Source of the DNA: Halobaculum roseum
Lineage (GTDB): Archaea; Halobacteriota; Halobacteria; Halobacteriales; Haloferacaceae
Assembly: GCF_019880245.1 (NCBI RefSeq)
Contig: NZ_CP082286.1
Span: 2,374,521-2,438,520 of the forward strand
Reading direction: 5' to 3'
DNA length: 64,000 bases
The position numbers and the translations under genes are program-made. The notes under the pieces were generated by a model that was not told where the DNA came from, made no database searches, and was given only the letters and a program-made list of their open reading frames with translations. Of this stretch, positions 1-45,274 are shown one piece after another. Positions within the stretch are counted from its first letter, which is position 1. Each line of letters starts with the position of its first letter.

Positions 1-382
1 GATTTGAACACGGAAGTCGCAGCGCCGAGCGCGACCGAACGGAGTGAGGTCGACGCGAGGCGACCGTCTTCAGGAGTTCAAATCCCTGTCCTGGCGTACT
101 TCTCGGGTCGACAACGCGAACGAGCGTAGCGAGTGAGCCGTCGACCCGTGTGTGCCCTTCCGACGGGGATTTGAAGTAGACGAGTCGCAGCCTGCGCAGC
201 GAGCAACGCGAGCGAGCAGGACCGTCTCGGCGTGGTTCAAATCCCTGTCCTGGCGTCTTCTGACGGAGCCACACGGCGAGCGGAGCGAGCCGTGGCTCCG
301 TGAAACCCGCGTGCAGGGATTTGAGCAGGGAGTGAAGCGAGCGAAGCGAGCGGAACGACCGCGTTCAAATCCCTGTCCTGGC
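1..382. repeat. cluster of hairpin repeats with three tRNA-3'-end-like direct repeats
   Basis: A 20-bp direct repeat (gttcaaatccctgtcctggc) occurs at 76-95, 235-254 and 363-382. Its sequence could form the T-loop, the 3' T-stem and the acceptor strand of a tRNA, but no complete tRNA can be folded around it. Copies 2 and 3 are paired with an inverted arm (ggggatttgaa at 165-175, cagggatttga at 314-324); the window opens inside the arm of copy 1. Between the units lie two other hairpins with perfect 9-bp stems: 104-112/140-148 and 264-272/292-300. All loops are rich in gcgagcg/agcgag words. No credible CDS is present; short ORFs here are frame accidents of GC-rich repeats. Confidence 0.7.
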
Positions 383-454
383 TCTTTAGACTTGGTAACC
401 CGCCACGAGATGGTCCGGTACCGCTGTTGGTACTGACACCGTAGTGAAGACCGC

Positions 455-566
455 GAAAGCCCCCGGTTCGCTCGTGGCCTGCGTCTCGCTGCGCTCCTCG
501 GCCTTCGGCCTGCGGTGCTTGCGTCGCCTCGGCTCACGAGCGAACCGGCCCCTTTCAGTCCCGCCC
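455..566 (+). repeat. dispersed fold-back element, copy 1
   Basis: First of three copies in the window (others at 11556-11684 and 43576-43699). It begins gaaagccccc and ends ggcccctttcagtcccgccc. Internal arms 463-476 and 535-548 are perfect 14-bp reverse complements; the words gctgcgctcctcgg and ctgcggtgctt between them are shared with the other copies. The three stems differ in sequence but all pair perfectly. It may be a structured RNA, a small non-autonomous element or a DNA hairpin signal. The remaining sequence from 383 to 706 shows no gene. Confidence 0.75.
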
Positions 567-10572: not shown

Positions 10573-11445
10573 TCAGCGACTCCCGGGCCGCTCGCGCACC
10601 CAGTCGTCCGATCGGTACTTCTCGTCGGCGATCTCCTCCGCCCGCGCCAGTTCCGCGTCGGTCCATTCGCCCGCCTCGGCGTCGGCCCACCCCGCCAGCG
10701 ACTCCTCGAAGGCGGCGACGGCGTCCCCCCGCGTCGCGTCCGCGTAGTCCGTGATCCCGCCGACGCGCTCGGCGAACCGCTCCTCGCCCACGCCGTGGTC
10801 GCGGAAGACCGCCAGGTGCTCGCGGGGCTTCGCGTCGAACGTCACCGAGCCGTGCTGGATGACGCTCTCGTCGCGTCGGTACTGGGCGTTGCCCGAGAGC
10901 TTCCGGCCGGCGCCGCCGTCGGCGCACACGTCGTGGGCCGGGTGGAGCCCCCGGAGGTAGCAGGCGGGCCGATAGATCGCGGGGCGCTCCTCGTCGGCGT
11001 AGTCGGCGTCGACGCCGAGGGCCCGGAAGGCGGACAGCACCGGCTCACACAGCAGGTGGTAGGCGTCGAGCAACTTCCCGGGCAGCTCCTCGGCGGGCGC
11101 CGTGATCGAGTAGGAGATGTCGCCGTCGCGGTCGTGGTAGATGCCCCCGCCGCCGGTCTGGCGGCGCGTCACGTCGACGCCCGCGTCGGCGCAGTGGTCC
11201 CAGTCGACCGACTCGGGGTCCTGGGCGTACCCCATCGAGAGACAGGAGGGCTCCCAGCGGTACACGCGGACCGTCCGCGGGCCGCCGTCGGCGGCGGTCT
11301 CGGCGGCGACCTCGTCGAGCGCCATGTTCAGCGGACCGGGGCGCGCCTCCTCGCGGATCAGCCGCCACTCGCGGTCGGCGAGTGGGCCGGCGGCGCCGTC
11401 GCCCGTCCCCGCGTCGGCGTCGGCGTCGGCGTCCGTGTCGCTCAT
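10573..11445 (-). CDS. lipoate-protein ligase A family protein
   Basis: 290 aa of the biotin/lipoate A/B ligase fold. The substrate loop RRQTGGGGIYHD and the lysine in GRKLSGNAQYRR are present, so attachment of lipoate (or octanoate transfer) to E2 or GcvH lysines is likely. The N-terminal ~22 residues are an Asp/Ala repeat (DADADADA). The C-terminal ~40 residues are an acidic helical extension (AELARAEEIADEKYRSDDW) that may act as the accessory domain. Whether it ligates free lipoate or transfers from another carrier cannot be decided from sequence. It is divergent from rio2 across a 339-bp region holding a dispersed repeat. Confidence 0.88.
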   Translation of the reverse strand: MSDTDADADADAGTGDGAAGPLADREWRLIREEARPGPLNMALDEVAAETAADGGPRTVRVYRWEPSCLSMGYAQDPESVDWDHCADAGVDVTRRQTGGGGIYHDRDGDISYSITAPAEELPGKLLDAYHLLCEPVLSAFRALGVDADYADEERPAIYRPACYLRGLHPAHDVCADGGAGRKLSGNAQYRRDESVIQHGSVTFDAKPREHLAVFRDHGVGEERFAERVGGITDYADATRGDAVAAFEESLAGWADAEAGEWTDAELARAEEIADEKYRSDDWVRERPGSR

Positions 11446-11555: not shown

Positions 11556-11684
11556 GGGTGGGACTGAAAGGGGCCGCGACGCTCGGGGAAGGCGCGGACC
11601 GACAAGCACCGCAGGGGAGCGACCTGATGGGAGCGAGCCAGGGAGCGCAGCGGCCGCACCGACCCGAGCGTCGCGGGGGCTTTC
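11556..11684 (-). repeat. dispersed fold-back element, copy 2
   Basis: Inverted copy of the element at 455-566. Read on the minus strand it starts gaaagccccc (11684) and ends ggcccctttcagtcccaccc (about 11556). Arms 11574-11587 and 11663-11676 are perfect 14-bp reverse complements with a different sequence from copies 1 and 3. It sits between the divergent lplA-like and rio2 genes. The remainder of the 339-bp gap (11446-11784) holds only the rio2 promoter region. Confidence 0.75.
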
Positions 11685-12785: not shown

Positions 12786-12924
12786 CCCTTACAAGCGCCT
12801 GTCCGGAACTACTGGTAACTCGCTGGCAGGTGGGCCGCCAGTGGGCACCCGGTACGCCGGGACGAAATGTGACCGCTCGGGGTTCCCGACGCGGTTGAAT
12901 CGCAAGCGCCCGCGGAGACCACCA
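12786..12924 (+). promoter_or_regulatory. candidate promoter and structured leader of rpl15e
   Basis: A cccttacaag TATA-like box (12786-12795) would start a transcript with a ~110-nt leader, unusual beside the leaderless genes around it. Two small hairpins lie in it: ctggc/gccag (12823-12827/12837-12841) and cccgg/ccggg (12848-12852/12857-12861). A weaker TATA-like gttgaat ~28 nt before the ATG would instead give a leaderless mRNA, so the leader is tentative. Confidence 0.3.
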
Positions 12925-42419: not shown

Positions 42420-43499
42420 ATGTACGACTTCGTCGTGGTCGGCGTGGGTCCGGCGGGCGCGCGCTTCGCCCGGCGGGCCGCGGAGGCCCACTACGACGTG
42501 CTCGCCCTCGAGAAGGGGACGGTCGGCGAGCCGTTGGCCTGCTCGGGGCACGTCTCCACCGACATCTGGAACTACGTCCCCGCCGACGCGAAGGAGCGGC
42601 TGCTCCAGAACCGGGTGTACGGCGCCGACTTCCACGTCGGCGGACCCGAGTCGTCGAGCGACCGCTTCTACAAGCGCGAGGAGGTGTCGAACGTCATCGA
42701 CCGCGTCGAGCTGGACCACACGCTAGCGGACGCTGCCCGCGACGCCGGCGCCGACGTGCGAGAGGGCCACACCGTCACGTCGGTCGAGGAGCGGCCGGGC
42801 TACGTCGAGGTGACCGCCAGCGTCGGCGGCGACGAGGAGACGTTCGAGGCGCGGATGGTCGCCGGCGCGGACGGGCCCGTCTCCCGGGTCCGCAAGCAAC
42901 TGGACCTTCCCGAACCGACGGAGACGCTCCACGGCGTGCTCGCGTTCACCGACGAGGCGGACCACGGCGACTACGTGAGCGTGCACCTCACCGCCCCGCG
43001 CTTCTTCGCGTGGCGCATCCCCCGCGGCGACGCCGGCGTCGAGTACGGGCTCGCGGCGCCGCCGGGCCACGAGGTCAACGAGCTGTTCGACCGCCTCACC
43101 GCGGAGTACGGCGTGGAGACCGACCGCTTCTGCTCGGGAGCGATCCCCATCGGCCCGCCCGCGCGGACGACTGCGAAGCGCGGGTTCCTGCTGGGCGACG
43201 CGGCCGCCCAGACGAAGCCGTTCACCGGCGGCGGCATCCTCTACGGGATGCGCGCAGCCGACGTGGCCGCCGATGTCATCGATCCCCAGGACCCGAACAC
43301 GCTCCCCCGATACGAGGAGGGGTGGCGCGAGGAGTTGAGCAGGGAGATCCGACTGGGTCACTGGATCCGGCGGGCGTACTCACTTCCGGAGCCGGTGCAG
43401 CGGGCCGGGCTGTGGGCGCTCTCCGGGGAGATCGGCGTCCACATGGACGAGCCGAGCTCGTTCTTCTCGCGCGAGCACCTGCGGAAGCTGTTCTCGTAG
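42420..43499 (+). CDS. geranylgeranyl reductase family FAD-dependent protein
   Basis: 359 aa. The N-terminal FAD motif VVVGVGPAGARFARRAAEAHYDVLALEK and the GDAAAQTKPFTGGGILYGMRAA motif are those of the digeranylgeranylglycerophospholipid reductase group, which saturates the isoprenoid chains of archaeal membrane lipids or related isoprenoids such as menaquinone tails. CSGHVSTDIW contains the conserved Cys. Haloarchaea have several paralogues, so the exact substrate is open. A strong TATA box agatatatct (42389-42398) stands 22 nt before the ATG, giving a leaderless transcript. It was probably a single-gene unit; the next feature is a dispersed repeat. Confidence 0.88.
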   Translation: MYDFVVVGVGPAGARFARRAAEAHYDVLALEKGTVGEPLACSGHVSTDIWNYVPADAKERLLQNRVYGADFHVGGPESSSDRFYKREEVSNVIDRVELDHTLADAARDAGADVREGHTVTSVEERPGYVEVTASVGGDEETFEARMVAGADGPVSRVRKQLDLPEPTETLHGVLAFTDEADHGDYVSVHLTAPRFFAWRIPRGDAGVEYGLAAPPGHEVNELFDRLTAEYGVETDRFCSGAIPIGPPARTTAKRGFLLGDAAAQTKPFTGGGILYGMRAADVAADVIDPQDPNTLPRYEEGWREELSREIRLGHWIRRAYSLPEPVQRAGLWALSGEIGVHMDEPSSFFSREHLRKLFS

Positions 43500-43575: not shown

Positions 43576-43699
43576 GGAAGCCCCCGCGTCGCTCGCGGTC
43601 GAATCCTCGCTGTGCTCCTCGGCTCGCTCCCTTCGGTCGCTCGCCTGCGGTGCTTACATCGGAGTCTCCCGCGAGCGACGCGGCCCCTTCCAGTCCCAC
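43576..43699 (+). repeat. dispersed fold-back element, copy 3
   Basis: Third copy, same orientation as copy 1. It begins ggaagccccc and ends ggccccttccagtcccaccc. Arms 43584-43598 and 43669-43683 are perfect 15-bp reverse complements. The internal words gctgtgctcctcgg and cctgcggtgctt match copies 1 and 2. It lies between the convergent stops of the reductase and ygfZ genes; nothing else is seen in 43500-43788. Confidence 0.75.
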
Positions 43700-43788
43700 C
43701 CGGCAGAAAGTCGATCGAGCGTCGAACCCGGACTCCCGCCCGTGCAGCTTCGGGGAGTCGAGGATCGTCGCGTCCGGCTTGCCCGTCG

Positions 43789-44898
43789 TTACGTCTGTTC
43801 GGTCGCCTCGGGGTACGTAGGTAGCCGCAGCGACCGCGCGCCCCCCTCGACGAACGGGAGGTCGGCGCGCTCGGCGGCGACCTCGTCGCCGTCGACGCGG
43901 ACCGCGAGGTCGCCGGCGTCAGCGTCGGCGTCGAAGTCGAGATACGCGAGCGCGATCGGCGCGTCGAGCGACGGTGACTCGACCGCGCGAGTGATCTCGC
44001 CGACCGAGGCGTCGCCGTCGAATACGGCCGCGCCGGACTCCGGGAGGGCATCGGGGCGGAGGCCGACGAGTCGCTTGCTCGGCCGGCCGCGGTTCTCCAC
44101 CTTCGAGACGACCTCCTGGCCGACGAAACAGCCTTTCTCGAAGTCGACGGCCGAGCGGACGCCCGCGACGTTCGGCAGGCGACCCCGGAGTTCGGTGTCG
44201 AACAGCGGCGTGCCGGCTTCGGCGGTGAGCATGCCCCAGGTGGTGTAGCCGAACGGGGCGGCGTTGAGGCCGCGCGTCAGGAGGGTGTCGAACACGCGTT
44301 CGGCCTCGTCGGCGGCACAGACGACCTCGTACCCCTCCTCGCCGGTCGGGTTGTCGCTCGCGATCACCGTGACGCCCACGTCGTTCATCCGCCCGCGGAC
44401 GAACGTGAGCTCGGGCTCGGGGGAGCCGGCGCCGTTGAGGACGGAGGCGATCTTCTCGGTCGAGGTCGGGCCGTGGACGCCGAAGACGCCGAACTCGTCG
44501 CTTGCGTCGCGCAACTGGACGTCGTCGATGAAGACCTTCCCCTCCCAGTCCTCGACGAGCGGCTCGGCGCGGTCGGGGGGCGTGAACAGCAGGAGGCGCT
44601 CGCCGGCGTTGTAGACGAACAGCTCGGTCTCGATCGCGCCCTGTGGGTCGAGCAACAGCGTGTAACAGCCCTCGCCGTCCGCGCTCGGGACCCGATTGGA
44701 GACGGCGTTGTCGACGAACTCGACGCGGTCGTCGCCCTCGACGATCACGACACCGTAGCCCATCTCGATGGCGCCCACGCCGTTGCGGACGGCGCGGGCG
44801 GCGCTGTCCGGCCGACCGTAGTCCGCGACGACCTCGCGGCCGCCGCGGTCGGTGAAGGTGGCGCCGTGGTCGGCGTGCACGTCGGCGACGAGACTCAT
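43789..44898 (-). CDS. YgfZ/GcvT-fold folate-binding protein
   Basis: 369 aa of the aminomethyltransferase fold. The motif EKGCFVGQEVVSKVENRGR near residue 250 is the YgfZ signature K-G-C-(Y/F)-x-G-Q-E, which separates it from glycine-cleavage T protein. YgfZ proteins bind tetrahydrofolate and help the assembly or repair of some Fe-S enzymes; the conserved Cys is needed. The N-terminus AIEMGYGVVIVEGDDRVEFVDNAVSN follows the T-protein pattern. The start at 44898 was chosen as the ATG next to conserved sequence; 35 further codons upstream are not conserved. Confidence 0.88.
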   Translation of the reverse strand: MSLVADVHADHGATFTDRGGREVVADYGRPDSAARAVRNGVGAIEMGYGVVIVEGDDRVEFVDNAVSNRVPSADGEGCYTLLLDPQGAIETELFVYNAGERLLLFTPPDRAEPLVEDWEGKVFIDDVQLRDASDEFGVFGVHGPTSTEKIASVLNGAGSPEPELTFVRGRMNDVGVTVIASDNPTGEEGYEVVCAADEAERVFDTLLTRGLNAAPFGYTTWGMLTAEAGTPLFDTELRGRLPNVAGVRSAVDFEKGCFVGQEVVSKVENRGRPSKRLVGLRPDALPESGAAVFDGDASVGEITRAVESPSLDAPIALAYLDFDADADAGDLAVRVDGDEVAAERADLPFVEGGARSLRLPTYPEATEQT

Positions 44899-44974
44899 AC
44901 GCGTACGCACACCCGCGGACGCCAAAAGGGGAGCGGAAGCGGTGGGTCGGTGTCGACGCCCGAGCGGGAAGCGC

Positions 44975-45274
44975 TTACAGCCCGAGTCGACGGCGGATCG
45001 CATCGAGGAGCCCCGGATCGCCGTCGACCTGCTCGCCCGGGTCGGGAACGACGCGGTCGTCGGGGTAGATGCGCACGCGCCCGTCGGCCTGCTCGATCTC
45101 GATGAGCCCGGCCGACTTCAGCGCCGACAGCGCCTCCTCCACCTCGTCGATCGTCGCGTCGACGCCGGACCGGAGCTCCAGCACCGTCATGCCGTCGTCG
45201 GCGCGGCCGACGAGCGCGTCGAGAACCGCCACCTCCGTGTCGTCCCTGTCGCGGAACTCGGGCGGCACCCTCAT
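44975..45274 (-). CDS. winged-helix protein (DUF6432-like)
   Basis: 99 aa. The central part (EVAVLDALVGRADDGMTVLELRSGVDATIDEVEEALSALKSAGLIEIEQADGRVRIYP) is a winged helix of MarR/ArsR-like type: recognition helix around IDEVEEALSALKSAGL and wing EIEQADGRVRI. It may regulate transcription or bind another protein. The C-terminal DAIRRRLGL is a short basic helix. It lies 76 nt upstream of ygfZ on the same strand, so the two may share a transcript. Confidence 0.8.
   Translation of the reverse strand: MRVPPEFRDRDDTEVAVLDALVGRADDGMTVLELRSGVDATIDEVEEALSALKSAGLIEIEQADGRVRIYPDDRVVPDPGEQVDGDPGLLDAIRRRLGL

Follow-up and report, generated by a model that had tools for sequence, protein, structure and literature searches.

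What kind of element keeps its ends and its base pairing while its stem differs in sequence from copy to copy? The question is raised by a fold-back sequence dispersed in a 64-kb window of Halobaculum roseum, the window being the whole stretch of DNA that was analysed. The original prediction offered a small RNA family, a hairpin bound by protein, or a non-autonomous element folding as single-stranded DNA. The last of these fits best, and with a confidence a little above even we regard the family as a dispersed, intergenic, palindromic REP/BIME-like repeat that works as folded G-rich single-stranded DNA.

All three predicted copies were found in their places (Table 1). The coordinates of copies 1 and 2 stood as given, and the end of copy 3 was moved from 43699 to the position listed. 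Conservation of the ends holds for the family; the clamp of copy 3 differs, GGAAG...CTTCC being a compensated change of GAAAG...CTTTC. The internal words are present but not strictly constant, with GCTGCGCTCCCTGG in copy 2 and GCTGTGCTCCTCGG in copy 3. The gene contexts were confirmed as well, copy 1 lying next to the 3′ end of ribE, copy 2 within a divergent gene pair and copy 3 within a convergent pair, and the family is tied to no single one of them. The end word occurs three times in the window against 0.03 expected from dinucleotide shuffles. A covariance model of 64 elements, mostly from other genomes (copies 1 and 2 included, copy 3 excluded), recovered exactly the three copies, with E values of 1.6e-17, 2.7e-17 and 1.3e-15, the next match having an E value of 0.41. 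Every copy was more stable than its shuffles on either strand (z −2.4 to −5.1). Single-strand folding of both strands gave one common architecture for the three copies: the clamp has 5 bp, the mismatch loop is 3x3 and symmetric (CCC/CCC or GGG/GGG), a long stem leads to an imperfect apical part, and the 10 bases of the tail are unpaired.

Table 1. Positions of the repeat copies, their parts and neighbouring features in the 64-kb window of Halobaculum roseum.
Feature	Position	Strand	Description
Copy 1	455-566	+	Whole element, 112 bp
Copy 1, clamp	455-459 with 552-556		
Copy 1, mismatch loop	460-462 with 549-551		
Copy 1, stem	inward from 463 with 548		
Copy 1, apical part	mid-element		
Copy 1, tail	557-566	+	Conserved AGTCCCGCCC; opposite strand GGGCGGGACT, two GGG tracts, foot of the hairpin
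Copy 2	11556-11684	−	Whole element, 129 bp, flanked by divergent genes
LplA-like gene	10573-11445	−	Neighbour of copy 2
RIO-kinase-like gene	from about 11784	+	Neighbour of copy 2
Copy 3	43576-43701	+	Whole element, 126 bp, clamp GGAAG:CTTCC
Gene	42420-43499	+	Neighbour of copy 3, convergent
Gene	43789-45003	−	Neighbour of copy 3, convergent
eL15-Euryarchaeota ribosomal protein leader	12848-12906	+	Sole Rfam match within the window

A tRNA-Ser (GGA) gene lies upstream of the window. In the region formed by window positions 1-400 and about 620 bp upstream (L390 1856-2400), the last 19 bases of this tRNA recur three times in tandem across the following 470 bp, with fold-back sequence between the recurrences, an arrangement that looks like repeated integration at the tRNA gene.

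The count of three copies was a large underestimate, the family being class-wide. With up to three mismatches in the end word, the H. roseum genome contains 39 copies and the reversed pattern occurs 0 times; reversed-pattern controls were near zero across the copy counts. The distribution is patchy. The first 60 relatives carry 0 to 106 copies per genome, three genomes of one genus carry 85-143, with a G-for-C variant of the tail, and many haloarchaea have few copies or none. Genomes G025, G042 and G059 have 106, 85 and 56 copies, respectively. In a phylum-wide sample the pattern was present in 51 of 393 genomes, nearly all from one order, with a single match outside it; the named hosts among the matches listed belong to many haloarchaeal genera. 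The family thus extends beyond this genome, across Halobacteria. Viral contigs contained no exact match and phages gave only short chance matches, so a viral origin was rejected. The original prediction named no known family; no Rfam family matches the repeat, and literature searches by topic or by sequence words found no description of the hairpin family. As far as searched, the repeat is confined to haloarchaea, and it seems to be an archaeal counterpart of the bacterial REP repeats that has gone undescribed.

Elements are usually 105-130 bp in size and consist, in order, of the clamp, the CCC/CCC mismatch loop, a variable paired stem of 12-14 bp, a semi-conserved interior and the tail AGTCCCACCC. 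The mismatch loop and the ends are constant across the class, and the left CCC, which is not part of the retrieval pattern, is kept in nearly all elements. The clamp takes the forms GAAAG:CTTTC, GGAAG:CTTCC and, in one genus, CAAAG:CTTTG; it covaries, since GGAAG goes with CTTCC and CAAAG with CTTTG. Among 227 elements, stem positions 2-11 formed Watson-Crick pairs in 77-98% of cases versus about 32-48% with shuffled partners, and three or four base-pair types were found at most stem positions. Minimal copies of 32 bp without the hairpin are rare; at one site of sister genomes (L063/L134) the 32-bp form is present in one genome and the full element in the other. Tail-to-tail pairs of copies recur, with shared spacer types, and in one copy (L338) the mismatch loop has been converted to perfect pairing. 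The interior was rejected as a separate mobile insert, as 13 of 15 core-word matches lie inside known elements; one further match lies about 500 bp upstream of a gene for an RPA-like protein.

A second fold-back family with two hairpins, GTCGTTCGA-hairpin-TCGTGATGACGA-hairpin-TCGAACCAC, sits inside the apical part of several elements. Its loci are L011, L013, L025, L062, L024 (reversed), L171, L178, L212 and L318, and its stems differ from copy to copy with pairing kept. At L330 and L336 of G025 and at L322 and L337 of G042, left half-ends of the repeat follow one another in tandem at a spacing of about 57 bp, and the roughly 30 bp between them are unrelated in sequence.

Covariation of the stems had been taken as a sign of selection. 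Pairing is indeed far above chance; step-by-step compensation was not supported, as sister genomes mainly replace the whole hairpin. Orthologous sites of H. roseum were compared with those of the sister genome G009, and an element counted as retained if its two versions were alike to 90% or more. The 12 retained elements had five stem changes, all one-sided, and no two-sided change, whereas 46 two-sided and 14 one-sided changes fell on the ten sites whose hairpin was different or altered. Recent covariation therefore comes mainly from hairpin replacement. Most element sites are common to both sister genomes, and at orthologous sites hairpins were replaced, inverted or deleted; one replacement, at L004/L128, left the ends fixed and inverted the hairpin that lies between them. 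Different loci within genomes have hairpins 93-98% alike and flanks at background identity. Such alike hairpins with unrelated flanks, together with the replacements at sites, indicate that the hairpin is the unit copied or exchanged and that covariation is inherited with it. On the longer time scale of 18 plasmid orthologues, compensated stem changes occur in place too. This is a warning for covariation analysis: strong stem covariation between loci may mostly reflect exchange of whole hairpins.

The mismatches of the stem are not distributed equally between the strands. Read on the plus strand, 270 distinct stems contained 137 A:C mismatches versus 27 G:T, and an A:C on this strand is a G:T on the other. 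The excess has the same direction in every group listed, survives removal of the most affected position and comes equally from the two arms (71 and 66). A sign test over elements gave 2e-17, which is indicative only as elements share ancestry. In 129 elements the G-rich strand gives the more stable outer stem, in 25 the less stable one. In the conserved interior the predicted G-U pairs lean slightly towards the non-G-rich strand, so that it is the variable stem which carries the strand inference. A process acting symmetrically on a palindromic stem would not yield such an asymmetry. Selection on the folded G-rich strand is the simplest reading, and a strand-specific mutational bias could account for the asymmetry in part.

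Comparison of the sister genomes revealed neither a clean insertion into an empty site nor a target duplication; the genomes differ by deletions at short repeats, by replacements or by change of a whole intergenic stretch. A Y1/RAYT partner was rejected, as no match to the Y1 transposase (PF01797) was detected in the three high-copy genomes G025, G042 and G059, of which G042 is just 81% complete. Beside the chromosomal copies no gene family recurred widely, transposases included, when an older, antisense-prone gene caller was used. An autonomous element was not found near the copies; the repeat itself has short fixed ends.

On plasmids the setting is more uniform. In 16 of 20 plasmid matches inspected, the element lies about 420-620 bp upstream of a gene on the same strand; the encoded protein has about 290 aa and carries an RPA/SSB-like OB fold as its C-terminal part. 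The noncoding stretch between element and gene, about 500 nt long, is itself conserved and contains several palindromes, being found on plasmids of many haloarchaeal genera (L370-L378, L381-L384, L387-L389, L016, L021) and giving no significant Rfam match; it is possibly a structured leader or a replication region. The fixed position of these copies suggests that some of them serve the host or the plasmid. As a mobiliser the RPA-like protein was rejected: G042 and G059, with 56-85 copies, have just a distant homologue. We do not claim it as the mover of the repeat because it does not track chromosomal copy number.

In the explanation that we favour, the working form would be the G-rich single strand 5′-GGGTGGGACT-GAAAG-GGG-[stem-loop]-GGG-CTTTC-3′, recognised when folded by a putative protein acting on single-stranded DNA. 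Alternatively, copying driven by the hairpin in the course of replication or repair may spread the repeat. Decayed hairpins at existing sites would be replaced by fresh ones whose stems are intact, and these would presumably found new sites at times, under a constraint that would keep the stem pairing and the ends and leave the stem sequence free. That neither a clean insertion nor a mobilising enzyme was found counts against this explanation, as do the lean of the interior G-U pairs to the other strand, the possible share of mutational bias in the asymmetry and the plasmid copies fixed upstream of the RPA-like gene.

A structured RNA, either a small RNA or a cis element, transcribed from the G-rich strand would tolerate G-U pairs on that strand, which matches the mismatch asymmetry. 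For the gene context a gene-finding model was trained on acid-rich ORFs; it reproduced the three window contexts and called four of six annotated plasmid genes correctly. By this model 265 of 266 elements are intergenic. At its accuracy of 4/6, left ends face gene starts in 163 cases versus gene ends in 102, and divergent sites number 74 versus 46 convergent; elements are weakly biased in orientation. In 163 of 265 elements the start of the adjacent gene lies in sense with the G-rich strand, which also agrees with an RNA. A sense location at gene 3′ ends was rejected as an artefact of a caller accepting antisense ORFs in GC-rich DNA. Against an RNA, no TATA-like word was found in the 75 nt before the 5′ end of the G-rich strand in 341 elements, and TTTT followed within 30 nt of the hairpin in just 8 of 342 and 5 of 341 on the two strands; an intrinsic terminator and a standalone RNA gene are disfavoured by these signals. 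The missing Rfam match, the weakness of the orientation bias and the patchy copy number (0 to 143) argue in the same direction. We consider the structured RNA unlikely, the small RNA family of the original prediction included; an RNA gene seems to us less likely than a DNA element.

Two explanations at the DNA level were also weighed. The elements might be immobile old palindromes homogenised by ectopic gene conversion and palindrome repair, with pairing as a by-product of template switching. The sites common to sister genomes, the restriction of exchange to the hairpin and the perfectly paired loop of L338 are as expected from this, but the strand asymmetry is not what a symmetric process produces, one-sided changes in retained copies were left uncorrected, and the mismatch loop and ends are constant across the class; we hold it to be improbable. 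Little probability is likewise given to a DNA site with host function, such as the target of a protein of the nucleoid or of replication, or a G-quadruplex next to a duplex hairpin, although its location is strictly intergenic and it is fixed upstream of the RPA-like gene on many plasmids. Among 113 copies (G000, G009, G025) the G tracts were changed in 0-3%, versus 19% for the base between the two tail tracts and 12% for another linker base, a count biased by the tail-based retrieval. The four GGG tracts could possibly form a quadruplex, yet many copies in G059 have an interrupted tail tract (GTCCACCC, GTCCGCCC). That many haloarchaea have few or no copies speaks against an essential role. 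A rather doubtful but more inclusive idea is a class-wide haloarchaeal REP-like system, in which a single-stranded hairpin, bearing a 3x3 G loop as well as a G-rich foot and maybe forming a quadruplex-duplex hybrid, would be copied by a non-Y1 enzyme, the ancestral or functional copy maybe being the plasmid one upstream of the RPA-like single-strand-binding protein.

Integron attC sites conserve structure over sequence, and one folded strand is recognised. The haloarchaeal repeat resembles them in keeping structure rather than sequence and in the probable folding of one strand, but cassette arrays and an integrase were not noticed beside its copies. Copies of SMR-A of Haloquadratum walsbyi are nearly identical, have fixed inverted ends and target IS605-type palindromes (PMC3119063). 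The present repeat is like SMR-A and the 'SwitchRepeats' (PMC3119063) in its length of about 110 bp, inverted ends, many copies, lack of a transposase, same-site swaps or inversion, and core deletion; unlike SMR-A (PMC3119063), its hairpin stem varies and its sites are intergenic, the HqIRS elements being compared by description alone. With the haloarchaeal PATEs derived from IS200/IS605 (PMC3119063) it shares a non-coding nature and near-terminal palindromes. It differs from the PATEs (PMC3119063) in that no IS605-type gene with the ends of the repeat was found and the presence of Y1 transposases is unrelated.

Bacterial REP, BIME and REPIN sequences have a 20-40 bp unit with a GTAG or CGTC tag and are associated with RAYT (Y1) transposases (PMC2817692, PMC3733652, PMC3116915). 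The haloarchaeal repeat shares with them many intergenic palindromic copies per genome, stems that vary yet stay paired, a patchy species distribution, a conserved tag at one foot, and tail-to-tail inverted pairs with characteristic spacers. The differences are the archaeal hosts, a size of about 120 bp versus 20-40 bp, a tag of AGTCCCACCC / GGGTGGGACT with GTAG or CGTC not seen, and three high-copy genomes without a Y1 transposase. We do not file the repeat as REP because two defining features fail, namely tag with size and the Y1 partner. Most work on REP-type repeats concerns bacteria, and there a Y1 transposase is taken to explain them. An archaeal family with signs of strand-specific folding, some of whose rich hosts are without Y1, makes the question of copying directly testable in culturable haloarchaea, and the plasmid copies beside the RPA-like gene are a concrete place to seek a function.
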